The position numbers and the translations under genes are program-made. The notes beneath the pieces were generated by a model. That model was not told the DNA's origin. It searched no databases and saw only the letters and a program-made list of their open reading frames with translations. Shown here piece by piece: positions 6,091 to 62,039 of a stretch of DNA of 64,000 bases; the first letter of the stretch is position 1, and each line of letters starts with the position of its first letter. The stretch lies in contig NZ_SWBQ01000001.1 in assembly GCF_005116445.1 (NCBI RefSeq), positions 1,054,001 to 1,118,000 on the forward strand, in the 5' to 3' direction. This DNA is from Pedobacter frigoris (GTDB taxonomy: Bacteria; Bacteroidota; Bacteroidia; Sphingobacteriales; Sphingobacteriaceae).

Positions 6091-6096
6091 TTTTTG

Positions 6097-6169
6097 TGAT
6101 CCCGCTGGGATTCGAACCCAGGACCACTACATTAAAAGTGTAATGCTCTACCAGCTGAGCTACGGAATC
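6097..6169 (-). tRNA. tRNA-Lys (anticodon UUU), copy 1
   Basis: A 73-nt cloverleaf. The acceptor stem is GATTCCG/CGGGATC, the D arm is GCTC-AGCTGGTA-GAGC, the anticodon stem is TTACA/TGTAG around loop CTTTTAA (anticodon TTT), and the T arm is CTGGG-TTCGAAT-CCCAG. CCA is not encoded. It is base-for-base identical to the copies at 43944-44016 and 44776-44848. Confidence 0.97.
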
Positions 6170-23400: not shown

Positions 23401-26400
23401 AGAATTACACAGCAGTTTATTCTGGATATGGATGCTGTTTGCAAGAGAGAAAAACTGCCACTTACTGTGGTGGGTTTTGGATCTTTATGGAGACTCAGAT
23501 TTACCGAAGATGTTCCGTATAGCGAATTGTTATTTACCCTGATGCGGTTGAAAGGGATTCATATATTGGATGGCTTCCCATGTTTTATGACTACAGCACA
23601 TACTGATGCAGATATTTCCGCGATAGTAAAGGCTTTTGAAGAGAGCATTGAGGAAATGATCAAGGCTGGTTTTTTATATACTTCAGGTGATTCTAAAATT
23701 GTTGAAGCTACGAACAGGGAAGATATTTTGACTGTACCGGCAACTGAATCGCAACTTGAAATTTGGACTGCTTGTCTGATTGGCGGTTCGCAGGCCAGCT
23801 GTGCTTACAATGATTCGGCTTCAATCGAATTGAGCGGGGCATTTAATCAAGAAGCGATGCGAAAAGCATTACAGATAATTTCTGACAGACATGAATCTCT
23901 ACGTGCTGTATTCAGCGCTGAGGGTCAGCAGATGATCGTCCGAAAAGAGTTGCCTGTAAATATAAGTGTCCATGATTTATCGGCAAAAAAGGAGAATCTA
24001 AAGGAAGAGTTTATTGCTAAGGACAATTATGAGTCTGCAACCATGGAACTCGACTTGGCGAATGGACCATTATTTAAAGCTACAATATTTAAGCTAAGTC
24101 ATACCCGGTATATAGTGAAGTTGCTGCTCCATCATATCATTTGCGATGGCTGGTCTATTGGCATTCTGATGCAGGAAATTAGTAAGATTTATTCGTCGCT
24201 TGTTAAAAGAGAGCCATTACAGCTGCCTCCCGCACAACTTTTCAGTGAATATGCAGAGGAAGAGCATCGTAAACTTAATGTTGAAAATGAGAAATACTGG
24301 CTTGAGCAATTTGAAGGCGGTCATAATCCACTGGATATACCAACTGATAAGTCAAGACCAGTACAAAGGACATACAAAAGCAAGCGTGCAGATTTTGATC
24401 TGGATGCTGATTTGGTTAAAGAAATAAAACAGGTAGCACGTAAGGCAGGCAGCAGCTTTGTAACCACAATGCTTGGAGCATTTGAGCTATTTTTGCAACA
24501 ATTAACAGGGCAGGAAGAAATCATAATTGGATTGCCGGTTGCCGGACAATCTGCAACAGGTAAATATGGTTTGGTAGGTCATTGCGTAAATCTTTTACCT
24601 TTAAGGAGCTTTCCGGATGTAAACAAATCTTTTTCAAGTTATCTGAAACAAAGGACTACGGAGATATTAGATGCATATGATCACCAGGGCTATACTTTTG
24701 GTACTTTACTTAAGAAATTAAACCTGCGGAGGGATCCTTCACGATTGGCTTTAATACCTGTAATCTTCAATATTGACATAGGTATGGACGAAGGTGTGGA
24801 ATTTGAAGGCCTTACCCACAGATACATCAGCAATCCCCGTGAATATGAAACCTTCGAGATTTTTCTGAATATCACCAATAACGGTGATGCGCTGATATTG
24901 GAATGGTCATACAATACAGCGTTGTTTGATTCAGCCAGTATCGAAAAAATGATGCAGCGCTATGAATACCTTTTGCGTCAGCTTGTTATTGCACCAGATA
25001 CCCCTATCAGAAATTCTTTTTCAAAAATTGATGATGAACAGATAGATCAGTTGAAAAAGTGGAACAATACTGCCTGTTTTTATCCGGAAGATCAATCGTT
25101 GCCTCAGCTCATTAGCGATGTGGTGGCCATGTATCCTGATCATAGTGCTTTGACATTTAAAGACGTATCATTTACTTATTCTGAACTTAATGCAAAAGCC
25201 AATCAGCTTGCCGCACTCTTGATAGAAAATGGACTGAAAAAGGGCGACAAAATTGCAGTTTCGCTCGACAGGTCTGCAGAATTGGTCGTTGGAATACTGG
25301 CCGCTATAAAGGCCGGTGGTGTATATGTACCTCTTGATCCTAAATTCCCCGCAAACCGAATCAATTATATGCTTGAAGACTCAGGTGCGGTATTTTTACT
25401 GACCAGCTCATCCGGTAAAATAGAAAATAAAGCGGGGATAAGGGAGATTGTATTGAATGAGACACTGCATAAACTCGATGGTTACCCTTCGACAAATCCT
25501 GAAGTAATTATAACGGGTACGGATTTATTATATGTTCTTTATACTTCAGGTTCTACCGGACAGCCAAAAGGAGTAATGGTTGCGCATCATAATATGGTTA
25601 ATTTCCTGTATAGCATGAAAAAGCGACCGGGGCTTATGGCTGCTGACAAATTACTTGCTGTAACCACTATTAGTTTTGACATCGCGGGACTAGAACTCTT
25701 TTTGCCCTTGATTTCTGGTGCTGAAATTGTGCTGGCAGATGATGAATCCATAAAAGATGGACGTGCGTTACTAGATATCATAAAAAATGAGGCGATAACA
25801 GTAATGCAGGCTACACCATATACCTGGAGAATGCTACTCGAAGCCGGTTGGGGAGAGGAAAAAATAAAAGCCATATGTGGTGGTGAAGCTTTACCCTTAG
25901 ATCTGGCAAAGAACATCTTAAAACGTGCATCATCTTTATGGAATGTTTACGGGCCTACTGAAACTACAGTATGGTCTACCGTAACAGAAGTTAAGGCTGA
26001 AGACAACTATGTTAGCATTGGTCGCCCAATTGATAATACCACTATCTATTTGCTCGACCAATTTGGAAATCCGGTGGCAACCGAGACGGCGGGTGAAATT
26101 TATGTAGGAGGGGCAGGAGTAACCAAAGGTTATCTAAATCAGGCAGCACTTACAGCCGACAAATTCATCGATGATCCATTCTCTGAAATAAAAGACGCTA
26201 AAATGTACCGTACCGGCGATTTGGCGAGACTTAATGAAGAAGGAGAACTGATCTATATTTCGAGGATCGACCAACAGGTTAAAATAAGGGGTTATAGAAT
26301 AGAAACGGCAGAAATTGAGCATTTCCTATGCCAGGAAAAGGAAATAAAACAAGCTGTAGTAATGCCCCTTGCTGATCACAGGAACATCAACAGATTAATT

Positions 26401-27678: not shown

Positions 27679-28405
27679 AATGTACACGCTTAAGAATTCA
27701 TTTGCTGATCACATCATTTGGGACGGTCCGGTGTATGAGTTGGAGTCAAATCAAATACATGTTTTTGACATTAGGATAAGTATGTATTTACAACGGTTAG
27801 ATGAATTTATTTCTTTATTAAGTCCGGATGAAATAGCCAGAGCAAATAGGTACTTTCAGCAAAAAGATCGTGAACGCTTTAGGATAAGCAGAGGCATGCA
27901 GCGGATTATTTTGGGTAAATATTTAAATCTACCTGCCTGTTCATTACAATTCAAATTAGACAATCATAAAAAGCCATTCTTATTGAACGATACATCTGAA
28001 ATCTATTATAACCTTTCACACGCTGCAGATGTGATACTTTTGGTTATATCTACTGCACCAATAGGAGTTGATGTAGAATATATCAATCCTGATTTTCCTT
28101 ATCAGGAGGTAATTAAAGATCATTTTACTCAGGAAGAGATAAGTCATATTAATGAGATGAATTCCTCTGAAAGGTTTTTTAAACTTTGGACAAGAAAAGA
28201 AGCATTTTTAAAAGCGACAGGTCAGGGGATTGGCGATGATTTGAAACTGTACCCAACCCTGGATGGCGAACATATACTTCAAAAGAACGTAGTAAGTAAT
28301 AGTCAAAACTGGCAACAGCTAAGTTTTAAACTAGACGAAAATTACATAAGCAGCATAACTTCATGCGCAGGAAAAATTAGTTATTGTTTTTCTAAACCTG
28401 ACTAA
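27671..28405 (+). CDS. Sfp-type 4'-phosphopantetheinyl transferase
   Basis: This 244-residue enzyme moves phosphopantetheine from CoA to carrier-domain serines. The two family motifs are intact: D134 and E136 in IGVDVEYI (magnesium), and W173, K176, E177 in LWTRKEAFLKATGQG. The length is typical of Sfp. The ATG lies inside the end of the megasynthase gene (8-bp overlap), so the two are translationally coupled and this enzyme very probably activates S557, S1530 and S3075 of that protein. It may also serve other carriers in the cell. Its 3' end overlaps the convergent amidohydrolase gene by 14 bp. Confidence 0.95.
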   Translation: MTEMYTLKNSFADHIIWDGPVYELESNQIHVFDIRISMYLQRLDEFISLLSPDEIARANRYFQQKDRERFRISRGMQRIILGKYLNLPACSLQFKLDNHKKPFLLNDTSEIYYNLSHAADVILLVISTAPIGVDVEYINPDFPYQEVIKDHFTQEEISHINEMNSSERFFKLWTRKEAFLKATGQGIGDDLKLYPTLDGEHILQKNVVSNSQNWQQLSFKLDENYISSITSCAGKISYCFSKPD

Positions 28406-43933: not shown

Positions 43934-43943
43934 ATTTTTTATG

Positions 43944-44016
43944 TGATCCCGCTGGGATTCGAACCCAGGACCACTACATTAAAAGTGTAATGCTCTACCA
44001 GCTGAGCTACGGAATC
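43944..44016 (-). tRNA. tRNA-Lys (anticodon UUU), copy 2
   Basis: Same 73 bases, same strand and same anticodon loop (CTTTTAA) as copy 1 at 6097-6169. The two copies are therefore 37.8 kb direct repeats. CCA is not encoded. Confidence 0.97.
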
Positions 44017-44775: not shown

Positions 44776-44848
44776 GATTCCGTAGCTCAGCTGGTAGAGC
44801 ATTACACTTTTAATGTAGTGGTCCTGGGTTCGAATCCCAGCGGGATCA
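44776..44848 (+). tRNA. tRNA-Lys (anticodon UUU), copy 3
   Basis: The same 73 bases as copies 1 and 2 but on the plus strand. It forms an inverted repeat with copy 2, 759 bp away, and with copy 1, 38.6 kb away. It has its own promoter box and terminator, so it should be active. Confidence 0.97.
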
Positions 44849-44854
44849 CAAAAA

Positions 44855-47364: not shown

Positions 47365-47901
47365 TTAGTTCATGCGTACTGCAGGAATGGATTTCTTCGT
47401 CATCTTCTCCAATCCGGCAGCATAACTGTCAAACTCGGCATTCAGCTGTTTCACCAAAGCTTGTTTTCCATCTCCATCACCACTCACTAAAGCTCTCCAC
47501 ATTACATTGGTTTTGCTGCCATTGGCCTTAAAGAAAATGGCGTATTGTGCCGCTTTAATTCCCTTAGGCAGCTTGGTGTCATCAAAACTTATGGCTATCA
47601 GCTTATTGTGTGCCTCATTCTGGGTGATACTTTCTAAACGGCTGTCGCCATTTGAAAAAACAATCTTTCTAGATATCGGCATGGCCGCGTCTATAACTTC
47701 TATCGCACTTACATAACCATTCGAGGCTTTTTTTAATAACTCATTATTGTTAAAAACCTCCCAGATTGCGTCCAGTTCCATGTTTATCTCCACGCCTTTT
47801 TCAACATCCCATTTAACCTTTTGGGCAGCTTCCATCTGTGCATAGCTCTTTATAGCAGTTAAACCTGTCAGGAGTAACAAGGATAATATGATTTTCTTCA
47901 T
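47365..47901 (-). CDS. secreted SRPBCC-like protein
   Basis: The 178-residue product has a signal peptide (IILSLLLLTGLTAIKSYAQ). The mature part has the START/polyketide-cyclase-like pattern: VEINMELDAIWEVFNN at the start, the YVSAIEVID and SNGDSRLESITQ strands, and a long C-terminal helix (ALVKQLNAEFDSYAAGLEKM). Such proteins bind small hydrophobic ligands; the ligand is unknown. It is the last gene of the operon, 12 bp after the TlpA-like gene. Confidence 0.75.
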   Translation of the reverse strand: MKKIILSLLLLTGLTAIKSYAQMEAAQKVKWDVEKGVEINMELDAIWEVFNNNELLKKASNGYVSAIEVIDAAMPISRKIVFSNGDSRLESITQNEAHNKLIAISFDDTKLPKGIKAAQYAIFFKANGSKTNVMWRALVSGDGDGKQALVKQLNAEFDSYAAGLEKMTKKSIPAVRMN

Positions 47902-47913
47902 TTTCTTAGGTGT

Positions 47914-49074
47914 TTATTTACCAAATATTTTTTCCATGGCTTTATCTAACGATTCTCCACGAACATTTTTCTCTACGATTTTCCCATCTTTATCTACTAC
48001 AACCAAGTAAGGGATCCCACTGAACAGGTAAGAAGCCATTACAGGTTTAGATTCTACAGCATTGATCTGTGGCCAGGTCATGCGTTCTTCTGCCATTGCT
48101 TTTTTCCAGTCAGCAGGTTTTGCATCAACTGACACTGATAGAATCTCAAGACCTTGATCTTTGTACTTTTTATACACTTCTTTTAAGTGAGGAATTTCCT
48201 GGCGACAAGGGCCGCACCATGAAGCCCAGAAATCGATAATCAGGTATTTCCCTCTGAAATCTTTAGGACCCCATTTTTTACCATTTACATCAGGGAAAGC
48301 GAAATCTGGCGTTTTTTGTCCATCGGCAATTTTTGCTGCCTGCGCAATTCCGTCAAGGATTTCTTTTTTCTTGTTTTTCGCCAGATCCAGGTTAGGGAAT
48401 TTTTTGGTCAGGTTGTCAAGGGTAGACATGATCAGTTCCTGATCTCTTTTTGGACTTAAATAGTTAAGTGCGTAGAGTACCGACGGCTGATCTTTGTATT
48501 TGTTAATCAGGTATTTGATACGAAAGTCCCGGTCTTTGCCAATGCGGGTGAATCCATCTTTCATGTATTCTATCCATTTAGGCTCTTTTGAAAGGCCTGC
48601 CTGATATTGTTCCTGACCCACGGCAATCATTTGCTGATAATCAAGGTAAGAAACCAGGTTCACATCATTGATCAGATCGTTAGCCGCCGTCGTATTTTCC
48701 ATGTAGATGTAGGGCGGATTCTTGATTTTCATTTTTGCAGTATCAATACCTCTTACATTCACATGAATATTATCTTTATCAGCCCAGAAATCTATGCGGT
48801 CGAAATAGTAAACGCGAACCTGGTAAAAGTCTGGCTTGTCCGCAGGCACTTTAAATGAGAAGTTGTTATTCGCATCTAATTTTGTGCTGTCTATAGCTTT
48901 GAATGCTCTTTTGAATCCTTCTCCTTCATATCTACCGAGGTAAATCGGGTATTTGTTCTCTGTATCCGGGAATTTTACATTTCCGGTAAAAGTCACTGTT
49001 TTTCCTTTTTGGGCAAAGCTGCTGCTCAGTATAAACAGGGCGGCAACTACCAGCATTAAACCTTTTTTAATCAT
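47914..49074 (-). CDS. TlpA-like thioredoxin-fold protein with DUF4369-type N-domain
   Basis: A 386-residue exported protein (signal peptide LMLVVAALFILSSSFAQ). Residues about 25-120 form a beta-rich N-domain like DUF4369. A helical middle follows, and the C-terminal 140 residues are a TlpA/AhpC-type thioredoxin domain with the active site W286-C-G-P-C290 and PYLVVVDKDGKIV. It should reduce disulfides or act as a periplasmic oxidoreductase. It lies between the other thioredoxin gene and the SRPBCC gene in the SusCD operon. Confidence 0.92.
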   Translation of the reverse strand: MIKKGLMLVVAALFILSSSFAQKGKTVTFTGNVKFPDTENKYPIYLGRYEGEGFKRAFKAIDSTKLDANNNFSFKVPADKPDFYQVRVYYFDRIDFWADKDNIHVNVRGIDTAKMKIKNPPYIYMENTTAANDLINDVNLVSYLDYQQMIAVGQEQYQAGLSKEPKWIEYMKDGFTRIGKDRDFRIKYLINKYKDQPSVLYALNYLSPKRDQELIMSTLDNLTKKFPNLDLAKNKKKEILDGIAQAAKIADGQKTPDFAFPDVNGKKWGPKDFRGKYLIIDFWASWCGPCRQEIPHLKEVYKKYKDQGLEILSVSVDAKPADWKKAMAEERMTWPQINAVESKPVMASYLFSGIPYLVVVDKDGKIVEKNVRGESLDKAMEKIFGK

Positions 49075-49105
49075 TGTTTTTCGTGTTATATATTTAAGTT
49101 AATTT

Positions 49106-50305
49106 TTAATCTCTCATCATTGGGGGTGTCATTTGTCCCTTTTTGGCAGCCTCACTTCTTAGTTCCTGCGCTTTATTAGCCATTACTTCCGATTCGGCGG
49201 TTTTACCCTGTTTTTTAAGAATCCTTTTTCTAAGATCTGCCAGTTGTATGCTGGTAAAAAGGTCAGGATTGCTCTTTTCCAGTTGATTACTCCATTTTAT
49301 AGCGTCAGGGTAGTATTTGGCAGGTGCCGCAGTCCCGATGTCGTTGGCCGAGCTGATTACAAAACCTGCTTTTCTTGGAAAATCATTATCCGCCATTACT
49401 GCATTTACTTTTGCACAGAATTTATCCCACTGGTTAGCGGCGGCAAATTCGATCAGGTCCAGCTGGGCAAGCATTGAAACTGCCCCGGCGGTAGGTTTTG
49501 TCTGTAGTTTCCTAATGGCAGTAGCAATTTCTTTAGCTTCTTTCAGGTTGGTCTTTTTCTCGTAGGATCTTTTTACAGCGTAAACAGACATGTTCATGGT
49601 ACGTTCGAAATACATGTTTGCCTGGCTTGCGGGATACGTCTTTTCCAGCTCAGCTTTGTTTGTATATAAGTAAGCAAACGCCTGTGAAGAGGGGTTGTTC
49701 AAGTATTTTAATGCCAGCTCCCAGTTGTTTTTTTCCAATAGGGATGATTTTGGCAGCCCATCAAAATAGATTTTAGCTACAGTACCCATCTTTTCGGCTT
49801 CATAGGCTTTTTCCAATGCTTCCATATAAGCAATGGCTGTACCGTCAGAATGGTCGCCGGAGTTGAATTTTTTAGCGAGTCCAAATGCAGTGCTTTCTGG
49901 TTTCATCGCCTTGCTGGCTTCTGCCATAAACTCACCGGCAGGCATGCTGCCTACAATTTTATGCACCACCTCTCCATCGCCATTGATAAACAGGTAGGTA
50001 GGGTAGGCACTTACGCCGAATTTATCTTTCAGTGCAGGACCTTCACCTTTTTCCATATCGTATTTTACGTTATGGAAGCTACTGTTGAACAGATCGGCTA
50101 CACTATCTTTGGTGAATACGTCTTTGGCCATCATCTTACAGGGGCCACACCAGGTGGTGTAAGCGTCGAAAAAGATGATCTTGTTTTCTTTTTTTGCTGT
50201 TGCCAGCTGTGTTTTCCAGTCTGCTTCCTTAAATAGGATCTCTCGGTTTTGAGCGGAAGCGGATAGAACCATAATGCAGGCAAGTCCGGTTAATATTTTT
50301 TTCAT
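49106..50305 (-). CDS. exported thioredoxin-family protein
   Basis: A 399-residue protein with a signal peptide (LTGLACIMVLSASA). The thioredoxin domain is N-terminal, active site W52-C-G-P-C56 (TTWCGPCKMM), followed by the cis-proline region SAYPTYLF. Residues about 140-399 form an alpha-helical, TPR-like region of unknown role. It is 7 bp downstream of SusD and clearly co-transcribed. Two distinct secreted thioredoxin-fold proteins in one SusCD operon point to a substrate or partner with disulfides. Confidence 0.92.
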   Translation of the reverse strand: MKKILTGLACIMVLSASAQNREILFKEADWKTQLATAKKENKIIFFDAYTTWCGPCKMMAKDVFTKDSVADLFNSSFHNVKYDMEKGEGPALKDKFGVSAYPTYLFINGDGEVVHKIVGSMPAGEFMAEASKAMKPESTAFGLAKKFNSGDHSDGTAIAYMEALEKAYEAEKMGTVAKIYFDGLPKSSLLEKNNWELALKYLNNPSSQAFAYLYTNKAELEKTYPASQANMYFERTMNMSVYAVKRSYEKKTNLKEAKEIATAIRKLQTKPTAGAVSMLAQLDLIEFAAANQWDKFCAKVNAVMADNDFPRKAGFVISSANDIGTAAPAKYYPDAIKWSNQLEKSNPDLFTSIQLADLRKRILKKQGKTAESEVMANKAQELRSEAAKKGQMTPPMMRD

Positions 50306-50312
50306 GTTATCT

Positions 50313-51839
50313 TTATAAAGGATTCTGTTCTAAATTGTTATTCAACAGAATTTCTCCTGGTGGCAAAGGATAGATTATACGTTTGTCGTTGGCCTGAATC
50401 GTTAAAGGAGTGTTTGTCGAATAATCTGTATAATTTCTTATCATAGCTAGGCCGTTGCGGAAGTTATCGTATGATGAATGTCCTTCCCATGCCAGTTCCA
50501 GTCTGCGCTCATTTAAAACCGCCTGAAATACCGTCATATTTGCCGTCGCAAGACTTACCGTGGTCCAGGCAGGTGCTGTTGCTCTTGTCCTGACAATATT
50601 CAGGGCAATTAAAGCATCGCCGTTGTTGCCCATTTTAGCAAGCGCTTCAGCCTTGTTCAAATACATCTCAGCAATGCGCAGATAAGGTGTGCCGCTTCTA
50701 GTATGTGCATTGAAATCAAAACCTCCAGGCGGCGCTATTTGCTGATAATTGAATTTGTTGACTGAATTCCGGCTTTTGTCAGCAAGCGTTATCCGCTTAT
50801 CTGTTTCCACGGTAATGAAGTTCTTCCTCAAATCAGAAGGGTTTTGGTTTAAGATAGCCATGTAATCAGGTGATGCAGCATATTCGCCCTGGTATGGGTT
50901 TCCGAATACATCCCTTGCTATCAGAAATTCGTTGATCTTATTTCCGTTGGCATCATCATGTCTGAATGCAAATATGTATTCCTTATTGGTTTTACTATCT
51001 ATGGCAAAAGATGTACTGTATGCTGTACCTTGCAGCAAAGTATATTTGCCAGCGGAAATTACCTTGTCGGCATATTCGATAGCTTTAGTGTTATAGTCGT
51101 TCTGAGGAGCTGAAGGTGTGCCGCCCATATAAACATATACACGTGATAACAAGGCCCATGCAGCTTCTTTGCTCGCGTAATTGTTTGGATTTCCTGTACG
51201 CGGTTGTGTCATCAGGGCAGCGGCCTTTTCAAGATCGGCAACGACCTGTGTATATACCTCTTTAACTGTATTCCTTGTAGGTGCATAATCTTTATCCACC
51301 ATTGAACTTAAGGATAATGGGACAGCAAGTCCTGAAGCGTTATTTTCATAATATGGACGGCCATAAACCCTGACCATATTGAAATATGCCAGCGCACGTA
51401 AGAAATAGTTTTCCCCTTTAAGCTGGTCGTATGCAGCTCCCTGTCCATCCTGAACGGCATCAATGATTTTATTGGCACCAAATACAAGACGGTAAGACAT
51501 TCTCCAGAAAGGAGCAGTGGGACCCTGACTGGGTGAGTTGTTGAATATATAGCTATCATTTCTGGTCTGTGGAAAGGCCTGTGTAACCGACAACAGGTTA
51601 TTGCCTTTCAGTTCACTTAAATTAAACCAGTTCATGGCATATTGGGTATCACCTGCCGATTGGGTAACTAGTAGGGCATAGTTGCCGTTTGTTGCCAACG
51701 CCAGTCCGTCAAGGGTAGCTAAGAGCTCCTTGTCAGATTTATCATTAAATGGTCTAATGTTTTCGTCGATTGCTTTTTTGCAGCCAAACAATACAATTGC
51801 TGCAAAAAATAGATATGCGTTTAGTATGTACTTTTTCAT
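50313..51839 (-). CDS. SusD/RagB-family lipoprotein
   Basis: A 508-residue outer-membrane lipoprotein with the lipobox LFGC (C20). It has the SusD pattern: YQLKGENYFLRALAYFNMV-like helices (LKGENYFLRALAYFN), TPR-like segments, and the C-terminal LERRLELAWEGH-type motif (NERRLELAWEGHSSYD). The end YPLPPGEILLNNNLEQNP is the usual RagB ending. It caps the SusC barrel and captures the ligand. The gap to SusC is 11 bp. Confidence 0.96.
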   Translation of the reverse strand: MKKYILNAYLFFAAIVLFGCKKAIDENIRPFNDKSDKELLATLDGLALATNGNYALLVTQSAGDTQYAMNWFNLSELKGNNLLSVTQAFPQTRNDSYIFNNSPSQGPTAPFWRMSYRLVFGANKIIDAVQDGQGAAYDQLKGENYFLRALAYFNMVRVYGRPYYENNASGLAVPLSLSSMVDKDYAPTRNTVKEVYTQVVADLEKAAALMTQPRTGNPNNYASKEAAWALLSRVYVYMGGTPSAPQNDYNTKAIEYADKVISAGKYTLLQGTAYSTSFAIDSKTNKEYIFAFRHDDANGNKINEFLIARDVFGNPYQGEYAASPDYMAILNQNPSDLRKNFITVETDKRITLADKSRNSVNKFNYQQIAPPGGFDFNAHTRSGTPYLRIAEMYLNKAEALAKMGNNGDALIALNIVRTRATAPAWTTVSLATANMTVFQAVLNERRLELAWEGHSSYDNFRNGLAMIRNYTDYSTNTPLTIQANDKRIIYPLPPGEILLNNNLEQNPL

Positions 51840-51850
51840 TGTCTGCGTAA

Positions 51851-54800
51851 TTAAAATGTTAACTGTAAACCCAATAGATACTTACGGCTGGCGCCATAAC
51901 CTGCACTTACACCAAAGTTGTTGGTGTCGCCGGCCAGGTTTCCTTCAGGATCAACCCCATAGAACGTCTTTTTAGTGAAAACGAAGAGATTATCGCCACT
52001 GAGGTAAATGTTTGCCCTGTTTAATTTGGCTTTGTTGATCAGTTTTGCAGGCAATGAATAGCTTAACCTCACGTTGCGCACTCTGATATGGCTTGCATCT
52101 TCCCAAAATCTCGACATCAATTGCTGGTCAACACCATCCGTGCGGCCGCGATAAATCATAGGGTCAGAGGCTTGGTCGCCAGGTTTGTCCCATATCATTT
52201 GCCCCTCTCTCGGTTTCACCTGGTTGTACCTTAACACGTTATTTCCTTCAGAAGAAAAGTAACTGGTTCTTGAATTGTTATACACCAGGTAGTCAGCTGC
52301 AAAATTTAACAGCACTGATAGTTCAAATCCGCTGTAGCCGAACGTATTCAGCATGCCGCCGTAGTACCTTGGCGTAGAATTTCCTACCTTTTGAAACTGT
52401 GCCGAAGAGGCATCCCCAACTAAACCTGCAAATACTGCATCATAAGTGTTTACTATTTTTCCGATATAAGAATTTGTAGCGGCATCAAACTCAAGACGCT
52501 CAAACTGAGGTTTGCCTGTCTGTGAATCTACACCCATCCATTTCACTGCACGTATGGTAGCAATGTCATCACCCTCTTTGGTGATGCCAAAGGTTCCGTT
52601 TGTCAGTTTTCCGTCGTATAGCTTGGTGACTTTATTCTTATTGAAAGTCAGGTTTAAACCAGTTTCCCAGGTAAATTTACCAACCAGGTTTTTACTGGAC
52701 AATACCAGTTCCACACCACGGTTTAGCATAGCACCAATGTTTTGATACTGGCTGGGTACACCCAGTACTGATGGCGTAGCTACCCTTTGCAGCAGGTCGG
52801 TATTACGTTTCCTGTAAAAATCTGCTGAGAGGGTGATCCTGTTGAACAATCCAAGGTCTATACCAAGGTTACCAACATAAGCGCGTTCCCAGGTAATCGT
52901 TCTGTTCCCCAGCTGGTTGATGATACCGGCAGGATCGCCACCATATTGATAATTGAAATTATAGAAACTCTCAGTCAGAAAATCTTCTCCTGCAACTTTT
53001 CCGCTGGTTCCGTAACTGGCCCTGATTTTTAAGTTGGTCAGGTATTTATTGCCACGTAAAAATTGCTCATTTGTAGCCAGCCACGCACCACTTACTGAGT
53101 AAAAGTGTCCATCCCTTTTGTCTATGCCAAAGTTTGTTGAGTAGTCCATCCTATAAGAAGCATTTGCAAAGTAGCGGTCGTCATAGTTATAGTTACCTTC
53201 CGAGAATAGTGAGTAAGAAGCTCTGGCATAACGTTCTCCACGGAACGACTTTCCACTGAAGGTATTCCAAACCTCTGCAGCAGCTGAAGGAACTTTAACC
53301 CCGGTAGGCATGTTCTTTACTGCAAGCGCATTGAACTCAGAGTTGTTCCTGTTGTATTCAAAACCTCCCAAACCACCTACAGTATGTAAGCCATATTGCT
53401 TGCGTGCAGTGATTAGGTTTGAAGTCATGAATGAATTTGAGTTGGTTTTATTCTGTGTCAGTCTCCCTTTATCTGCCAATCCGGTTAATGATAGCCTGTC
53501 CTCATAAAAATCCCCATTGACGAACGTGGTATTGTAAGAGTTGTTAGACGATAAGGTCAGCCAGTCGAACACTTTATATTTTGCAGAGAATACGCCGAGT
53601 ACTTGCTGGGTTTTTGTGAGGTTTGTATTATAAGGTAAATCGTACACAGGATTTTGGGAGACATTGCCCAGCGCATCTGTACCAAGTACTTTTTTAGGAA
53701 TCCCATCACTGCTGTCGAGTGTATACCATGGAAGTAGAGAAAGCGGGTTTAGTCCGCCAATAGGGCTTCTGTTTCCTCTGTCAAATATCGTACTGATATT
53801 GGCATTTAAACTCAGCTTACTGGTGATATTGTGATCCAGGTTCAATTTAAAACTGTTTCTCAACAAGTCATTTCCTTTTAAAGGTCCTTGCTCATCATAC
53901 CTGTTGGCGCCAAAATAGTAGCGTGTTTTTTCCGTTCCGCCGGATAAACCAATATCTACAGTTCTGTTTAACGCATCGCGGTAAATGATATCGTTCCAGT
54001 CCGTGTAGGTATCCAAAACTGAAGCAGGCGGTAGATATTTGGCTAGGTAAGCTTCTTCAGTTAAGTTTTCATTTTTTAGAGTAAAAGAGTTGATGAGCAT
54101 TTTGCGCTGATAGTCATACAGCTCCCTGCTGTTCATGAATTCAATCTTCCCCATATACCTTTTACTAACGCCGAAAGTGCTGTTGATGTCCAGCTTCATG
54201 CTGCCGGCAACACCCTTTTTGGTGGTGATGACCAATACACCCTGACTGGCACGGGAACCATATATAGCTGTTGATGCTGCATCCTTTAATAAAGTAATAG
54301 ATTCTATATCAGTTGATGACACGATATCACTGGGGTAGGATACATCTGCATAGATAATTCCATCTACTACGATCAGTGGGTTGAGGTTATTGCTCACACG
54401 CAAATTTGCAGTTCCCCCAGTTATGGGTAAAGTACCTTGTCCGCGCACAACAAAAGAGGCTTTGTTATTTGGATCTCCTGAAGGTTCCGTAATATACATA
54501 CCCGCAACTTTTCCTTTTAACAGGGAAATCAGGTTGTTGGTGGTTACACCTTCCAGTTGCTTGGCGCTGAAAGTCTGTAGGGAACCGGTAATTTCGCTGG
54601 CTTTTTTGGTGCTGTAACCTAAAATCACAGCCTCCTGCAGTTGAGCAATAGCTGGATTTAAGACAATATTTATTTCTGAGTCATCAGTCTCGGTAACTAC
54701 CTTTTGAATGCTTTTGCTTTCATAGCCGATAGAGCTGAAAACAATGCGGTAGGTGCCGGGGGTAAGGTTTAAGGTGAAATAACCGTTGTCATCCGTAAAG

Positions 54801-55243
54801 GCTACAATGTTAGTACCGTCAACCTTAACTGATATTCTTGATATGGGGTCTTTACCATCTGTTACCCTTCCACGGATCACTTTCCTGGATGCGGCACTAT
54901 CATCTTTGTCGCTAAGCTCTGTCTTTGGCCTTATGATGACAGTATTACTGACAATGATGAAAGTCAACGGCTGATCGCTTAAGGCTTGTTTTAGTGCCTG
55001 GTCTATGGTTACGTTTTTTAGCGAAAGATTTATTTTTGCCGGATTTTTTCGGAGCAAGTCTACTTTGTAAAAGAAGGAGTAGCCGCTTTGCTGCTCGATC
55101 TTTTTAATAACGCTTTCTATGCTTGCGTTTTTTTCACTCAAGCTGATATTCTGGCTAAATGCTACCGCACTGGCCTGAAAACTGATGATTAGTAAGCATA
55201 TAATTAATTTCATGACTCTTAATGCGTCTAAAATTTTATTCAT
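51851..55243 (-). CDS. SusC/RagA TonB-linked outer membrane protein with STN domain
   Basis: A 1130-residue transporter. The signal segment (MKLIICLLIISFQASAVAFS) precedes an STN (secretin/TonB N-terminal) domain at about 35-110, a CarboxypepD_reg-like domain (125-205), the plug (SLLKGKVAGMYITEPSG, ASTAIYGSRASQGVLVITTKKG) and a large barrel. The STN domain is what a FecR anti-sigma factor contacts, and the FecR gene lies just upstream, so the receptor can signal its own induction. The ligand is not known; the co-transcribed thioredoxins argue for a peptide or protein fragment over a plain glycan (inference). Confidence 0.96.
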   Translation of the reverse strand: MNKILDALRVMKLIICLLIISFQASAVAFSQNISLSEKNASIESVIKKIEQQSGYSFFYKVDLLRKNPAKINLSLKNVTIDQALKQALSDQPLTFIIVSNTVIIRPKTELSDKDDSAASRKVIRGRVTDGKDPISRISVKVDGTNIVAFTDDNGYFTLNLTPGTYRIVFSSIGYESKSIQKVVTETDDSEINIVLNPAIAQLQEAVILGYSTKKASEITGSLQTFSAKQLEGVTTNNLISLLKGKVAGMYITEPSGDPNNKASFVVRGQGTLPITGGTANLRVSNNLNPLIVVDGIIYADVSYPSDIVSSTDIESITLLKDAASTAIYGSRASQGVLVITTKKGVAGSMKLDINSTFGVSKRYMGKIEFMNSRELYDYQRKMLINSFTLKNENLTEEAYLAKYLPPASVLDTYTDWNDIIYRDALNRTVDIGLSGGTEKTRYYFGANRYDEQGPLKGNDLLRNSFKLNLDHNITSKLSLNANISTIFDRGNRSPIGGLNPLSLLPWYTLDSSDGIPKKVLGTDALGNVSQNPVYDLPYNTNLTKTQQVLGVFSAKYKVFDWLTLSSNNSYNTTFVNGDFYEDRLSLTGLADKGRLTQNKTNSNSFMTSNLITARKQYGLHTVGGLGGFEYNRNNSEFNALAVKNMPTGVKVPSAAAEVWNTFSGKSFRGERYARASYSLFSEGNYNYDDRYFANASYRMDYSTNFGIDKRDGHFYSVSGAWLATNEQFLRGNKYLTNLKIRASYGTSGKVAGEDFLTESFYNFNYQYGGDPAGIINQLGNRTITWERAYVGNLGIDLGLFNRITLSADFYRKRNTDLLQRVATPSVLGVPSQYQNIGAMLNRGVELVLSSKNLVGKFTWETGLNLTFNKNKVTKLYDGKLTNGTFGITKEGDDIATIRAVKWMGVDSQTGKPQFERLEFDAATNSYIGKIVNTYDAVFAGLVGDASSAQFQKVGNSTPRYYGGMLNTFGYSGFELSVLLNFAADYLVYNNSRTSYFSSEGNNVLRYNQVKPREGQMIWDKPGDQASDPMIYRGRTDGVDQQLMSRFWEDASHIRVRNVRLSYSLPAKLINKAKLNRANIYLSGDNLFVFTKKTFYGVDPEGNLAGDTNNFGVSAGYGASRKYLLGLQLTF

Positions 55244-55424
55244 ATTTTTGTTTGGTTTAGTCGTGGCGCTACGGGTTCCCTTTTTTAGAGATTCAGTAAG
55301 CCCCGATGATGGGTTGATAATTTAATGTGGTCTATCCCGATTTCATTTTTATTTACCTGAAACTTAAGTCCGGAGGTGGTCGAAACACTTCCGGCTTTCT
55401 TGCTTTAAAGTAACTGTCTTGTTA

Positions 55425-56585
55425 TTATTTTACAATAAGCGTTCTCCCTTCTTTTTTTACGTTAATACCATTGATTTCAAGTAAGTTCATCACCTCATTC
55501 AGATTGAGGTTTCTTTGGATTTTAAAGTGAAAGAGATCGGTAGCAGGTTTGCTTTCAAAAACCACATCGATATCATACCACCGTGATAACTGTTTCATGA
55601 TGCTGCCGAGATCAGACTCGTTAAACTGAAAGTACCCATCTTTCCATGCTATGCTTTCTTGTGTATCTACAATACGTGTAGTTAAATTATTGTTATCCAA
55701 GATAGATTGTTGGCCTGGAAGCAGTGTAGTGGTTTTTCCTATGCCGACCTGCGAAACCCGTACGGCACCTTCGAGCAGTGTCGTTTTAGTCACTCCTTCA
55801 TCTGCATAGCTGTTTACATTGAAATGTGTACCCAACACCTGTACTTCCTGCTTGTCCGTCGCTACTATAAAAGGATGTTTCTCGTCTTTTGCTACTTCAA
55901 AATAGGCTTCTCCCGACAATTCAACTCTGCGTTTATTACCATTAAAGGCTGTCGGGTATTTTAATGAGGATGCTGCATTGAGCCATATTTTGGTACCATC
56001 AGGAAGATTAATCTGGTATTGTCCGCCACGCGGTGTAATGACTGTATTGTAGACAGGATCTGTTTTAGTATCACTTTTCGTACTGGAGACAATATTATAA
56101 ACCAATCGTCCGTCTTTAGTTTTGGTGATCTCTATTCCAGCCTGTTGTGCGATGCTGCCGCTTCCAACGCTGTCCAGATAGATTACTTTTCCATTTGCCA
56201 GTGTTAAAGTTGCCTTATTGCTACCGGGTCCAATGTCACTCAGCGTTTCCGTATTCTGATCAAGAGCAGGCTTGTTAGATTTATAGAAATAAAGTGCTGC
56301 ACTTAAAGCAATCACTACAGATGCTGCCGCTGCATATCTGTACCATTTTATTTTTTTGACAGGAGATCTTTTGTGCTGGGTTAAAATTTCCGCCAACATA
56401 TCTTCCGCATTTTCCGGGGCCTGGAATTCGCTGATGTTGATTTTATTCCAGGTGCCGTCGAGAAGAGTGGCGATCTGCGGCTCATCGGAATTAGCGGCTA
56501 TGATAGAAAAAAGTTCTGCTCGTTCTTCTTCAGTACAGGTTTCGTCAACATATCGCTGGTATAAATAGTCTAATTTTGTATTCAT
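55425..56585 (-). CDS. FecR-family anti-sigma factor
   Basis: A 386-residue inner-membrane protein. The cytoplasmic N-domain (to about 80) holds the sigma factor. One membrane helix follows (YRYAAAASVVIALSAALYFY). The periplasmic FecR domain carries the DGTKIWLNAASSLKYP and GEAYFEVAKDEKHPFIV motifs. A C-terminal DUF4974 domain ends the protein (ESDLGSIMKQLSRWYDIDVVF). It transmits the signal from the STN domain of the SusC protein. The gene is between sigma and SusC, gaps 81 and 181 bp. Confidence 0.96.
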   Translation of the reverse strand: MNTKLDYLYQRYVDETCTEEERAELFSIIAANSDEPQIATLLDGTWNKINISEFQAPENAEDMLAEILTQHKRSPVKKIKWYRYAAAASVVIALSAALYFYKSNKPALDQNTETLSDIGPGSNKATLTLANGKVIYLDSVGSGSIAQQAGIEITKTKDGRLVYNIVSSTKSDTKTDPVYNTVITPRGGQYQINLPDGTKIWLNAASSLKYPTAFNGNKRRVELSGEAYFEVAKDEKHPFIVATDKQEVQVLGTHFNVNSYADEGVTKTTLLEGAVRVSQVGIGKTTTLLPGQQSILDNNNLTTRIVDTQESIAWKDGYFQFNESDLGSIMKQLSRWYDIDVVFESKPATDLFHFKIQRNLNLNEVMNLLEINGINVKKEGRTLIVK

Positions 56586-56666
56586 AGATAGGATGTTTTT
56601 ATGCTCCCTTTCTTATATAGACCCCCGGCGGGGAGAAGAGGAGTAGTGAGTAATGAAAAAAAATAA

Positions 56667-57281
56667 TTAATGCTTTTCGGCGAGCAAAGTCATCAGGATT
56701 ACCAGTATGGCAATATCAGTATGGGTGCTTACATAATTGCGCAGGAAACGCAGGGCATGTTGCATATGAGTTTTTACCGTTAACCTGGATATGTTAAGCT
56801 TTTCAGCAGCTTCTTCATACTTAAGGCCTTCCTGGTGACACAGGTGGTACACCAGTTTTTGCTGTGGCGGCAGTTTTTCAATAGCCTGGTTTAAAATCTT
56901 TTCAGAATCCTTAAAAATGATGTATTCTTCAGTATCGTTGTGATTTTCCCGGTAATCTTTAGCCAATATCTTATTGGTCCTGATTTCCAGTGCCAGCCTT
57001 CGCAAAACTTTTAAAGTGTGATTTCTCGTAATTACACGCAGGTAGGCGTCGAGGTTCTCAATAGAGGTTAACTGTTCACCCAGGTTCCATATTTTTACAA
57101 ATACCTCTTGTATAATTTCCTCGGCAAGGGATTCAGATTTGACAATTTTTAAAGCATAAGTATAAACTTTAGGGCTATAGCGATGAAAAAAGATGCCGAA
57201 AGCCTTTGAATCACCGGTTGAAATCTGGTGTAAAAGTATCTTTTCGTCATTGAAATTTGCATCAAGCTTCGATTCTGTCAT
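56667..57281 (-). CDS. ECF RNA polymerase sigma factor
   Basis: A 204-residue sigma-70 factor of the ECF type. Region 2 is FGIFFHRYSPKVYTYALKIV with the EEIIQEVFVKIWN end. Region 4 is YEEAAEKLNISRLTVKTHMQ. A hydrophobic tail (IAILVILMTLL) closes it, as in many Bacteroidota ECF factors. It should direct transcription of the SusC-to-SRPBCC genes when FecR releases it. Confidence 0.96.
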   Translation of the reverse strand: MTESKLDANFNDEKILLHQISTGDSKAFGIFFHRYSPKVYTYALKIVKSESLAEEIIQEVFVKIWNLGEQLTSIENLDAYLRVITRNHTLKVLRRLALEIRTNKILAKDYRENHNDTEEYIIFKDSEKILNQAIEKLPPQQKLVYHLCHQEGLKYEEAAEKLNISRLTVKTHMQHALRFLRNYVSTHTDIAILVILMTLLAEKH

Positions 57282-57352: not shown

Positions 57353-59566
57353 CTAGTTATCCTTTTTTGGTATCAGGAAATAAAAACAGGTGCCTTGCGG
57401 CCGGTCACTTTCTGCCCAGATCTGTCCGCCGTGCTTATGTACAAAATCATAGCAGAGACTTAGTCCGAGTCCTGTACCTTTTTCTCCGGAAGTTCCATAA
57501 GTGGTATAGTTTGTATTCTTGTCGAAAAGAGTTTTAATCTTTTCTTCGGGAATTCCAATGCCATTGTCGCATACGGAGAACAGTACGCCATTTTCTTTAT
57601 TCTGGATTGCCAATATTACATTACCACCAGTGTGGGTGAATTTTATAGCATTGGCAAGCAGATTACGGATAATCGTTTCTAACATGTCTTTATCGGCCAT
57701 GAACTGGAACTGTCCATCTACCTGTTGAGCGATTTCAATATGTTTCTTAACAGCCATTGGCCCAATGGTCTGGATGGATTTAATAAATAATCCTGAAATG
57801 TCAGTGATGACTTCAGGATTGAAGCTTATGGCATTGAATTGTGATTTTGCCCAGGTCAGCAAGTCTTCCAAAAGGTTATTGGCATTGGAAAGCTCCTGCT
57901 TCATCATGGAAAGATAGGTATGTACCTCATCGGCAGAACTGGAAGCAAAATCGTCAAGTGTAAGATTCAGCAGCTGCAGGCTCCCTGATATGGGATTGCG
58001 AAGGTCATGCCCAATGATGGACAGGAGTTTGTTTTTCTGTTCATTAGAAGCAGTCAGCTCAGTATTTAAGGCCCTCAGTTCATTCTCATGGAATTTTCTG
58101 GCTGTTACGTCGCGCATACTGCCTTCGGTAGCTACGATAGCACCGTTTTCAACAACCAGTCGGGCATTAACCGACGCATAACGTAATTCCTTATCCTTGG
58201 TCTTGAGCCTCACCTCAAAATCAATCACAAACCCACTGGTACGCAGCGTATCAATTATTCTTTCACGGTCCTGCACATAAAAATAGAAATCAGAAACTGG
58301 TTGTCCGATGATTTCTTTGCGGGAATAACCTGAATACTGTTCAATTGAAGGACTGATCTCAGTCACCAACCCATTCTGATCTGTCTGGTAAAATACATCC
58401 TGAACATTTTCAAATATGGTTCTGTATTTCTTCTCGCTGAGGACCAGGTCGTTTTCTATTTCCTTTCTTCGGGTAATGTCTTCGATTTGAGATACATAAT
58501 ATAACGGATTATGCAGGCTGTCATACAGCATGGTAGCTGCAATAACCACCCAGATCACCCGACCATCCTTATGTAAGTACCTTTTCTCAAATTTAATTTT
58601 ATCAATCTTACCGGTAGTCATATCATCCAGACGAACTGCTGTGGTTGTAAGGTCTTCAGAGTGGGTGATCTCCCGTATGTTAAGCTGTTTCATTTCAGCT
58701 TCAGAATACCCGAGCATATCACATAAGCTTCTGTTTACGCGTTTGAATGCACCATCTGGTGTAAGCAGTGCCATACCGATAAGCGAATGTTCAAAAGCAA
58801 GCTTGAACTGAGCTTCACTTTGATACAATTCTTCCTCGAGTAGTTTGTTTTTAGTAACATTAAAGGCGATAGAACCGATCATGTTTCCTTCACCGGCCTC
58901 ATCAATAAAAGGGAATTTATAAACTTTATAGATTTGAGGATGTCCATGTTGATCCCTTACGGTCTGATGAAAGCTTTTTCCTTCCCCTGATTTTAAAACG
59001 AGGTCATTGCTTTCTTGTAAATTACGGGCAATATCAGAGCCAAATATAGCATTGTAATTTTTTCCGATCACATCATTACCTAGCCTGAGCGTGTCAAAAA
59101 AACACTTGTTGGCATATTTTAAGATGTTGGTATTGTCAGCAATCCAGCATAAACCTGGCAGCTCATCCATAAACAGCTGAAACCTTTTCTCATTTAAAGT
59201 GATATTTGTTTTGTGAGTTACATCCTCACTAGACATCATCATGCCACCTATTGCTCCATTATCGTCCAGCCAGTGTCTTACTTCCCATTTAAGCCACATT
59301 AACGTGCCATCTGCACGTAAGAAAGGATCGTTTTCACAATTCTGGTCCTTTCCAAGTAAACAATCAGCATGGATTTTTTTCCAGACATCTCCAATTTCAG
59401 GAAATACTTCATAATGAGACCGGCCAATAAGTACCTGATCTTCCAGGTGATAAAGACTGAGCCACTTTTCTGAAGCAGCAATGTAGCGCATTTCAGTGTC
59501 TACAACAGCTAAAGGTATCGGAGATATTGATATGATATTTTTAAAAGACAGCAAAGGGGTACTCAT
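57353..59566 (-). CDS. cytoplasmic PAS-domain sensor histidine kinase
   Basis: A 737-residue kinase with no membrane segment. It has four PAS domains in a row: 5-115, 125-235, 250-370 and 375-500; the PAC ends are visible as VTHKTNIT, VTKNKLLEEEL, ITRRKEIENDL and VTARKFHENEL. The HisKA domain is SIIGHDLRNPISGSLQLL (H in GHDLRNP). The HATPase has NAIKFTHTGG, CDNGIGIPEE and GTGLGLSLCYDF. It should sense redox, light or a small ligand inside the cell. No response regulator lies nearby, so it is an orphan kinase. It is 71 bp upstream of nothing on its strand except the sigma gene, which has its own start region. Confidence 0.94.
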   Translation of the reverse strand: MSTPLLSFKNIISISPIPLAVVDTEMRYIAASEKWLSLYHLEDQVLIGRSHYEVFPEIGDVWKKIHADCLLGKDQNCENDPFLRADGTLMWLKWEVRHWLDDNGAIGGMMMSSEDVTHKTNITLNEKRFQLFMDELPGLCWIADNTNILKYANKCFFDTLRLGNDVIGKNYNAIFGSDIARNLQESNDLVLKSGEGKSFHQTVRDQHGHPQIYKVYKFPFIDEAGEGNMIGSIAFNVTKNKLLEEELYQSEAQFKLAFEHSLIGMALLTPDGAFKRVNRSLCDMLGYSEAEMKQLNIREITHSEDLTTTAVRLDDMTTGKIDKIKFEKRYLHKDGRVIWVVIAATMLYDSLHNPLYYVSQIEDITRRKEIENDLVLSEKKYRTIFENVQDVFYQTDQNGLVTEISPSIEQYSGYSRKEIIGQPVSDFYFYVQDRERIIDTLRTSGFVIDFEVRLKTKDKELRYASVNARLVVENGAIVATEGSMRDVTARKFHENELRALNTELTASNEQKNKLLSIIGHDLRNPISGSLQLLNLTLDDFASSSADEVHTYLSMMKQELSNANNLLEDLLTWAKSQFNAISFNPEVITDISGLFIKSIQTIGPMAVKKHIEIAQQVDGQFQFMADKDMLETIIRNLLANAIKFTHTGGNVILAIQNKENGVLFSVCDNGIGIPEEKIKTLFDKNTNYTTYGTSGEKGTGLGLSLCYDFVHKHGGQIWAESDRPQGTCFYFLIPKKDN

Positions 59567-59609: not shown

Positions 59610-62039
59610 CTATTTCAAGTTCCAATTGTTGTCATAAAAACCTGCATATTCTACCTGGTCAATTCCATCTGTAAGCATTTTGAGTCTGAAGACCATGATA
59701 TCCGGAAAGCCGCTGCCGCCTGCAAAATACTGGTTGGCATTGGCTGCTTTCATGCCTTTCAATCCGCTGCCGGCAATGACTGAAACGGTATTTGACTGCG
59801 TGCCGGCAATAGGCCAGATAAAATAAGCACCAAGATCATCTCCGGTCAGTTTTTTGCTTCCTACAGTCACTGTGTTTTTGTTGACCTGCACCGGGCAGTC
59901 TGCGAGCAATATTTTCCAGGCCGAATTGGTGGTTCCATTGCCAATCAATACTACATTTCTGCCTGCATATTTTGCCTTGGAATATTCCTTATCAGCAATG
60001 ATATCTATTGCACCATTCCCTCTATAATACCAGCTTTCAGCATCAAAACGTGCCTTAGCTACACTCCATGCTTGTTCTTCATTTGTGCCTCCCGTGCCGT
60101 ACACGTATAACATGTGTTTATTGAAGCCTTCCTTAAAAGTGCCATATCGGTGCGGGCCTTTTACTTTCATATCAGGTACCTTTGCAAAGGTCCATGTGTT
60201 TCCCTGCTTTTCCAGAAACAGACTGTCTGCAGCGGAATGGGTGGTGTATTTGAGCGTATTCAGACTGTCCAATCTGATGTTTATCGCTTTGCCCTTAGGG
60301 AAATCTGATAAGCTTAGTTTTAATAAAGCTACATTTTCCAAAGTTCCACTGATCGTGCCTGAATCCAGATTTCTATTTAGTTTTATATTGCTGTATTTTA
60401 GTGGGATTACCTGTTGATGAATACTTACCCAGTAGTTGGAAGCTGATATACCCGGACTGGCCGTTGTAAAGTCAATCGTTTCTACTGTTTTGGATAGAGG
60501 TATCGTGTGCCATTTGAAAAAATCGAAGATAGGTAGCCAGTCTACACTATGATTGCCATACCAGTGTGATCCACCTGGATATTCATAATAGCTCATATCG
60601 GGATGGAACGCTGCCAACTGTGATTTCATTTGCCTCGCGTATTTCACGGACACGGTTTCGTCGGCATCTCCGTGTAATACATACACTCCAAGTTTTTTAT
60701 AATTATAAGCCAGTTTAGGTACATCGCTCTGATTACTTGTACGCAGCAGCAACTGGCCCAGTTCAGAAGAACTGCTTTCAGGAATTAGTCCGTCAGCAGA
60801 GCCATAACCTTTTAGGGTAGGGTATCCTGCACATGGCGCTATTGCCGCCCATTTATCCGGATAGGTAGCGCCCAGAAACCAGGTGCCATGTCCGCCCATG
60901 GAATGTCCCGTCAGGTAGATGCGTTGAGGGTCTGGCTCCAATTGCTTTTTTGCGATATTCAAGACTTCCAATGCATCAAGGCGGCCCCAGTCTTCCCAGT
61001 TAAAGCCCCTGGGTCTGCGGTTGGTAGGAGCCACCAGTGTTCCCCAGTCTTTAGACTGATAAGCCCTGGCCTGACCAATTGCTTCTACTCCGGCACCGTG
61101 CACAGAAAAGAATAATGCAGCATTTTTTTGCTCAGCACCAGTTTGTGGCGCTACTGCAAAGTATTGAAGACTTCCGTCGATGCCGCTCACAAATGTTTTT
61201 GCGTATTTGTCACCCGGCTTTACACTTTCTATCTTCAGTGTTTTCTGATCAATAACTTTATTTTCCTGAAGCAGTGAAAGTAAGCAGTCATTTTGACCCT
61301 CTCGTGCTGACTTTTCAAAGTCAAAATATACTTTTCTTGTGCTATATGCCGGGACTGCAGGCAAGGCAGTAGTCATTTCTTTTCCGGCCAGACTGCTGCG
61401 CATTTTAAGATTATGCAATGTTGCAGCTGTGGTATTCACAACAACAACAGCGGCCTTAAGTGATGTTTCTGTGCTGTGGGCTCCGGAAATAACTGGAACG
61501 GTAGCATCATTTATATCCAGGAAAACAGGGGTGGTAGGAAATGTAAGCACAGTTTGCCGGCCAATCCCGCGTACGAAAAATTCATTCTTTCCTTTTTTTA
61601 GCTTTAAAGGTATATTCATCCAGCCGGCAGCATATGGGTCACCCATATGTGGTTCCCCATTTACAAAAACGGTTGCATTTCCGGTGATATTTAATACTGC
61701 AGATTGAGCTTCGCTGGCAATATATTCATAATAAACATAACCATTGGAAGCACCTCTTCCCCTGAAACGGCTCTCGCCATCTACAGTAATCTTCGTCCAT
61801 TTGATGTCGTTTCCATCTTTGTCTTTTCCGAAGACCTCTCCCTCAAAGGGTGTACGCAGCGTATTGGTGTATAGCGCGTAAGCCAGTGGATCAGTATACA
61901 AGGCTTCCCTGCCATAACTGGTGCCAGCCCTTAAAAGCAAGCCGGAAGTAAACGTGTGTTTGTTTTGTGCAGATGCAGGGAAGATGATGCTGCAGAATAT
62001 AAGTGATACGAAGCAGCGATAAGATGAAAATTTAGCCAT
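59610..62039 (-). CDS. large secreted alpha/beta-hydrolase (esterase/prolyl-oligopeptidase-like)
   Basis: An 809-residue exported protein (signal peptide FVSLIFCSIIFPASAQ). The N-terminal region (about 60-300) is beta-rich with a carbohydrate-binding-like stretch (FVNGEPHMGDPYAAGWMN). The hydrolase core (about 300-520) has the nucleophile S380 in LTGHSMGGHGTW, an Asp in LHGDADETVSV and a His in GGSHWYGN. The C-terminal 280 residues are a beta-sandwich-like extension. Relatives are annotated as polyhydroxybutyrate-depolymerase-like or feruloyl/acetyl-esterase-like enzymes. Substrate unknown. It is monocistronic. Confidence 0.88.
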   Translation of the reverse strand: MAKFSSYRCFVSLIFCSIIFPASAQNKHTFTSGLLLRAGTSYGREALYTDPLAYALYTNTLRTPFEGEVFGKDKDGNDIKWTKITVDGESRFRGRGASNGYVYYEYIASEAQSAVLNITGNATVFVNGEPHMGDPYAAGWMNIPLKLKKGKNEFFVRGIGRQTVLTFPTTPVFLDINDATVPVISGAHSTETSLKAAVVVVNTTAATLHNLKMRSSLAGKEMTTALPAVPAYSTRKVYFDFEKSAREGQNDCLLSLLQENKVIDQKTLKIESVKPGDKYAKTFVSGIDGSLQYFAVAPQTGAEQKNAALFFSVHGAGVEAIGQARAYQSKDWGTLVAPTNRRPRGFNWEDWGRLDALEVLNIAKKQLEPDPQRIYLTGHSMGGHGTWFLGATYPDKWAAIAPCAGYPTLKGYGSADGLIPESSSSELGQLLLRTSNQSDVPKLAYNYKKLGVYVLHGDADETVSVKYARQMKSQLAAFHPDMSYYEYPGGSHWYGNHSVDWLPIFDFFKWHTIPLSKTVETIDFTTASPGISASNYWVSIHQQVIPLKYSNIKLNRNLDSGTISGTLENVALLKLSLSDFPKGKAINIRLDSLNTLKYTTHSAADSLFLEKQGNTWTFAKVPDMKVKGPHRYGTFKEGFNKHMLYVYGTGGTNEEQAWSVAKARFDAESWYYRGNGAIDIIADKEYSKAKYAGRNVVLIGNGTTNSAWKILLADCPVQVNKNTVTVGSKKLTGDDLGAYFIWPIAGTQSNTVSVIAGSGLKGMKAANANQYFAGGSGFPDIMVFRLKMLTDGIDQVEYAGFYDNNWNLK

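Follow-up and report, generated by a model that had tools for sequence, protein, structure and literature searches.

Systems of the SusCD type are mostly read as glycan importers. Other cargo is described as well: in excerpts of PMC11817032, RagAB reportedly imports peptides cut by gingipains, and in excerpts of PMC9723704 a SusCD pair of Flavobacterium psychrophilum is discussed together with a collagenase and peptide import. TlpA appears in the excerpted part of PMC10434189 as a table row by itself, and the excerpts of open-licence literature that were covered contained no description of an operon joining SusCD, thioredoxin, and START genes. Here, we analyzed a stretch of 64,000 nucleotides of Pedobacter frigoris (contig NZ_SWBQ01000001.1, positions 1,054,001 to 1,118,000; hereafter the window) and describe one of its operons, in which a SusCD receptor pair is followed by two thioredoxin-fold genes and a gene for a protein with a predicted START fold.

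The operon occupies positions 47365–57281, and all of its seven open reading frames (ORFs) are on the minus strand. Their order from the 5′ end of the operon is extracytoplasmic function (ECF) sigma factor, FecR, STN-containing SusC, SusD, thioredoxin (Trx), DUF4369-TlpA (TlpA), and START, with gaps of 81 bp between sigma and FecR, 181 bp between FecR and SusC, and 7–31 bp from SusC through START. A preliminary description, made from the letters of this DNA, had read it as an ECF/FecR-controlled SusCD operon with two thioredoxin-fold proteins, and the ORF, Pfam, and NCBIfam analyses confirmed all seven genes. Secretion is presumed for the exported products.

Our results showed that the specific trait of this operon is its START protein (47365–47901, 178 amino acids), which is tied to redox SusCD operons. 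The protein has no match above the Pfam threshold; Polyketide_cyc2 was matched below it (E = 0.054). A model predicted from an alignment of 28 sequences had a mean pLDDT of 86.1 and gave 352 Foldseek matches to START/Bet v 1 structures at E ≤ 0.001. The predicted order of strand, helix, helix, strands, and helix, with a long C-terminal helix, places it in the START/SRPBCC superfamily (Foldseek probability 1.00). The family profile also matches the solved SRPBCC protein 7tmu (8.3e-7), and with the modeled START/Bet v 1 fold this bears out the earlier label of an SRPBCC-like protein.

A single START copy was found in the P. frigoris genome. Among 99 genomes of relatives, its own included, START was found there and in four others (G012, G014, G026, and G032); one further match was doubtful and distant (E = 5.5e-4) and had stops inside. 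Trx proteins of at least 69% identity were confined to the same five genomes, with three copies in G026. In the family, START was present in 19 of 399 genomes drawn, belonging to three of 25 genera, and outside the family the search of 395 genomes of the class returned only three weak matches (E = 7.2e-4 to 6.5e-6). We collected 28 START genes of relatives (the window's own excluded; several genomes gave more than one copy). All of them lie in SusCD operons, 26 immediately after a Trx-fold gene and 2 immediately after a tandem START copy. The gene set is thus conserved across genomes, a check that the preliminary description had proposed. The receptor genes of two of these loci, L103 and L042, are partly located in the neighboring loci L101 and L041, and two others, L107 and L108, do not differ from each other in gene sizes, spacing, or identities. 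The START alignment (A3) consists of the window protein and 27 others, L108 being left out.

The operons belong to two classes. Class A, the window type, has the order sigma-FecR-SusC1-SusD1-Trx-TlpA-START; among its variants, L102 is without TlpA, L043 continues behind START with an M16 peptidase, which has the HxxEH motif, and a further TlpA, and L110–L112 have a different SusCD pair. Class B has the order SusC2-SusD2-M43-like lipoprotein-TlpA-TlpA-START, or a version with Trx. P. hiemivivus, which has a Trx of 74% identity, also shows the class B order with Trx in a named locus (L124). In two loci, L039 of G012 and L042 of G026, the Trx-TlpA-START trio behind a class B receptor is 73%–86% identical to that of the window, compared with 28% for SusC and 25% for SusD. 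The Trx sequences of both loci group with class A sequences in a clade with support of 99/97, and their SusC genes (that of L042 being L041_12) fall in the class B clade (100/100). The two operons of G026 lie in tandem, and gene conversion may explain the copy there; in G012 one START gene only was found. The sigma factors of L043 and L102 are just 26% and 25% identical to that of the window, and the receptors are 66% and 77% identical. The trio is the constant part of these operons and SusCD the variable part. The preliminary description had named the opposite pattern, Trx genes as mere variable neighbors, as the finding that would count against it.

Trx (49106–50305, 399 amino acids) has a signal-peptide-like N-terminus, a thioredoxin domain at residues 27–128 (Pfam), and the motif WCGPC at residues 52–56. 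Its C-terminal half was predicted with high confidence as an all-helical solenoid that weakly resembles TPR solenoids, with no Foldseek match under 0.001. Only this half of the model was used, the thioredoxin-domain part being of low confidence (block pLDDT about 30–70). The preliminary description had already seen a thioredoxin with a C-terminal helical region and, downstream of SusD, a DUF4369-TlpA protein, and the latter (47914–49074, 386 amino acids) was found by Pfam to contain DUF4369 and AhpC-TSA/Redoxin domains. Its WCGPC motif is at residues 286–290, and WASWCGPC occurs in all 23 aligned TlpA sequences, as is characteristic of the TlpA/ResA thioredoxin-fold proteins with CxxC; no NCBIfam model reaches its cut-off. 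The genome has one DsbD_TM match.

The tail of the window Trx, KGQMTPPMMRD, is conserved. An unstructured end of the TPP/TPQ type was present in 15 of the 16 START-linked Trx sequences (alignment A4), in none of 25 other compared Trx, and in none of 83 Trx of named loci without START. A short end tail containing Met was also found in 25 of 28 START proteins with a loose pattern. These conserved tails may be a docking signal or may reflect mere common descent, which is possible for the Trx tail because the START-linked Trx are close kin.

In L101, L102, and L104, the sigma gene is immediately preceded by a further TlpA gene (393–401 amino acids, 33%–38% identical to the window's).

To look for possible substrates of the redox enzymes, we considered the cysteines of the products encoded with them. 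The window SusC has a single cysteine, in its signal peptide; that of SusD is the lipobox cysteine; and START has none, as is the case for 19 of the 28 rows of alignment A3. The mature SusC and SusD of the other class A operons have no conserved cysteine, and the cysteines of the class B M43-like lipoprotein, apart from that of the lipobox, are not conserved among its members. SusC, SusD, and START were therefore rejected as clients. Since the other exported products of the operon offer no such cysteines, Trx and TlpA probably act on a substrate encoded elsewhere, either imported cargo or general envelope proteins.

The regulators and the receptor are of known types. The ECF sigma factor (56667–57281) belongs to the TIGR02985 family (Pfam Sigma70_r2/r4, NCBIfam), and the FecR-type anti-sigma factor (55425–56585) was identified by FecR (E = 7.3e-22) and FecR_C domains. 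SusC (51851–55243) is a SusC/RagA TonB-dependent transporter with STN (7.7e-10), CarbopepD_reg_2, Plug, and TonB barrel domains, and it scores 629.7 bits with TIGR04056 against a cut-off of 368. The adjacent gene encodes the SusD lipoprotein lid (50313–51839; SusD_RagB, 3.6e-25, and SusD-like_3), so that a SusC/RagA barrel with plug and an adjacent SusD stand together as in SusCD pairs. As the preliminary description had pointed out, the STN domain of SusC matches the FecR gene upstream; with the adjacent ECF sigma gene, the gene content is that of cell-surface signaling of the FecI/FecR type. A promoter scan gave results at chance level (22 found vs. 24.7 expected). Farther upstream, genes for a PAS kinase (57353–59566) and an esterase (59610–62039) were considered as operon members and rejected because they are not kept in sister operons.

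Redox genes as such are common behind SusCD pairs. In the P. frigoris genome, 20 of 51 SusD loci had a CxxC thioredoxin-fold gene in the co-directional run behind SusD. The loci are 51 matches to PF14322 (50 over the cut-off), the window's own included; runs were ended at gaps over 200 bp, and a thioredoxin-fold gene was any match to the A4 or A5 profile at 1e-5 with CxxC anywhere, a definition wider than that of the test based on positions. By match positions, a DUF4369 neighbor was present at 13 of the 51 loci, compared with a mean of 0.8 under random placement, and 17 of the 20 DUF4369 matches of the genome followed a SusD gene at a distance of up to 8 kb. Beyond the family, SusD was found within five co-directional genes upstream in 25 of 80 named loci with a Trx relative, and a START gene in two of the 80. 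Redox genes with SusCD are a theme of the phylum. Their presence in this unit, which the preliminary description had taken as a surprise, is not unusual here, and it is the START link that is special.

Two other arrangements were observed in the same genome. Operons of the order SusC-SusD-DUF4843-PKD_2-TlpA recur (L225 and L236 were tested; L224, L226, L240, L242, and L253 were assigned by gene sizes) and form a second redox-linked SusCD class. At L219:10994–13270, a protein of 758 amino acids with two SWCGPCR thioredoxin motifs is encoded behind a SusCD pair.

Based on these data, we propose that the operon serves the import of a polypeptide-like ligand by SusCD, with its disulfides reduced in the periplasm by a module that can be placed behind different receptors; we hold this account tentatively, at somewhat less than an even chance. 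From what is known of the families, ligand on SusC would act through STN on FecR and free the ECF sigma factor. The Trx(TPR)-TlpA-START module, which is passed on as a whole and has come to stand behind more than one kind of SusCD pair, would be a periplasmic processing unit. The ligand would most likely be a polypeptide or a peptide-like molecule. Trx and TlpA, presumably kept reduced by the single DsbD-type protein of the genome, would reduce cargo disulfides after import, if they work in the reducing direction. START could bind a hydrophobic part of the cargo or keep the cargo soluble until periplasmic peptidases cut it. The most elaborate version is a dedicated swappable machine, with the TPR-thioredoxin and TlpA opening disulfides, START holding the chain, docking through the Met/Pro tails, and a dead metalloprotease for surface capture in the sister operons; taken as a whole, this version is rather unlikely.

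The case for a nonglycan ligand comes from the enzymes that accompany such operons. With Pfam, no carbohydrate-active enzyme domain was found in the seven proteins, in agreement with the unit free of glycosidases that was first described; the co-encoded enzyme that defines a polysaccharide utilization locus is absent, and the sister operons show the same labelled genes. In the Trx-linked SusCD operons of the genome, 0 of 33 other proteins were glycosidases, compared with about 13 of 82 in unlinked operons (Fisher one-sided p = 0.009). The 33 are all of the non-Trx proteins, scanned at E = 1e-3; the 82 are those scanned at 1e-20 of 103 proteins, the other 21 being scanned just in an earlier tally (25 of 132 families listed). 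The figure of about 13 assumes that different families are different proteins and leaves out GHL10. DUF4843 and PKD_2 genes were each present in 7 of the 33. Two other Trx-linked operons of the genome have one protease gene each, papain-like in one and aspartyl in the other. Peptidases are also present in operons that lack a Trx-fold gene (three M60 matches) and so do not by themselves distinguish the Trx-linked operons. In class B, a lipoprotein derived from M43 stands between SusD and the redox genes and matches the M43 profile elsewhere than the zinc motif, which suggests surface binding of a polypeptide and not cleavage. The M16 peptidase of L043 is another hint of peptide cargo.

Several observations weigh against a peptide ligand for the window operon. 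The glycosidase contrast concerns Trx-linked operons in general and not this operon, and it counts proteins as independent. The HExxH zinc motif is missing in all 11 aligned M43-like sequences, on which ground an active metalloprotease in the sister operons was rejected, and window-type operons have no M43-like gene. SusC matches nine solved sequences, RagA and BT_2264 among them, and scores higher with the solved chain 8aa4 (297 bits) than with RagA (220) or BT_2264 (91), so that the transporter sequence does not appear to point to peptides. The solved relatives of SusC and SusD did not tell glycan from peptide; those nearest to SusC are presumed to comprise importers of both kinds of ligand. 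The preliminary description had proposed a disulfide-rich peptide or a redox-active ligand and not a glycan. The argument against a glycan gains weight from the glycosidase tally and the protease-derived sister genes; the protease-like gene met most often has lost its catalytic motif, and a disulfide-rich peptide is still what we infer as a possible ligand.

The M43-like lipoproteins without HExxH (L039:11811–13115, L042:1638–2909, L107:10261–11505, and eight others) are a candidate family of pseudo-protease surface-binding proteins.

The operon could also be a common type of locus for the use of glycans or glycopeptides, with its glycosidases encoded elsewhere; in favor of this, SusC is closer to some solved proteins presumed to be carbohydrate importers than to RagA or BT_2264. 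We consider this very improbable: the operon has no glycosidase, the tally of Trx-linked operons points the same way, and the module is kept with the same genes in the 28 operons of relatives. A unit serving a plain glycan is unlikely. A hydrophobic small molecule as ligand (a natural product, a sterol- or polyketide-like compound, or a metal complex), carried by START and reduced or released by the redox proteins, is possible but doubtful. It would suit the START/Bet v 1 folds, which bind hydrophobic small molecules and are represented in the Foldseek list by ligand complexes, and START is the rarest and most specific component. However, the recurrent extra genes of the sister operons are protease-derived, and the cargo of SusCD pairs is usually larger than that of ordinary TonB receptors.

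The trio could instead be envelope housekeeping, such as thiol repair or quality control of outer-membrane proteins, that is merely switched on together with SusCD. The frequency of Trx and TlpA genes behind SusCD pairs in the genome agrees with this, as does the indifference of the trio to the SusCD pair that precedes it. Among the copies examined, however, START is confined to such operons and occurs in few genomes, which would be odd for housekeeping, and we regard this explanation as fairly unlikely. A conserved redox-START module behind different SusCD pairs would mark a SusCD class for nonglycan ligands that can be recognized by sequence. Many SusCD pairs have no glycosidases, and for some of them it would offer a testable type of ligand. 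A module that is recognizable and independent of the receptor is worth an experiment.

Elsewhere in the window, positions 17500–28405 hold a hybrid nonribosomal peptide synthetase/polyketide synthase gene (3392 amino acids), followed by a phosphopantetheinyl transferase gene. Its domains are two AMP-binding, condensation, ketosynthase, acyltransferase, class-III aminotransferase, three carrier stretches, and thioesterase. A pair of tRNA-Lys(ttt) genes lies at 43943–44016 and 44776–44849, on opposite strands and about 0.8 kb apart, and a third is at 6096–6169.

Compared with the described systems, the operon shares the SusC/SusD architecture with the peptide importers RagAB of Porphyromonas gingivalis and BT_2263/BT_2264; it differs in that other solved SusC proteins resemble its SusC more closely and in that the excerpts of PMC11817032 mention no thioredoxin, TlpA, or START encoded with RagAB. 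The TlpA protein has the WCGPC motif, the Redoxin/AhpC-TSA domain, and the N-terminal DUF4369 of the ResA/TlpA proteins, but is coupled to a SusCD receptor and START. The chaperedoxin YbbN/CnoX combines a thioredoxin domain with TPR; in Trx, the thioredoxin domain is followed by helices with weak similarity to TPR solenoids, and YbbN (3qou) is in its Foldseek list at E = 0.13. CnoX of E. coli is cytoplasmic and without the CxxC pair, whereas Trx has a signal-peptide-like N-terminus and an intact WCGPC, and for this reason it was not classified as CnoX. START agrees with the START/SRPBCC (Bet v 1-like) proteins in its predicted fold and its profile match to 7tmu, but it lies below the Pfam thresholds, has a signal peptide, and is always found in a SusCD-redox operon.

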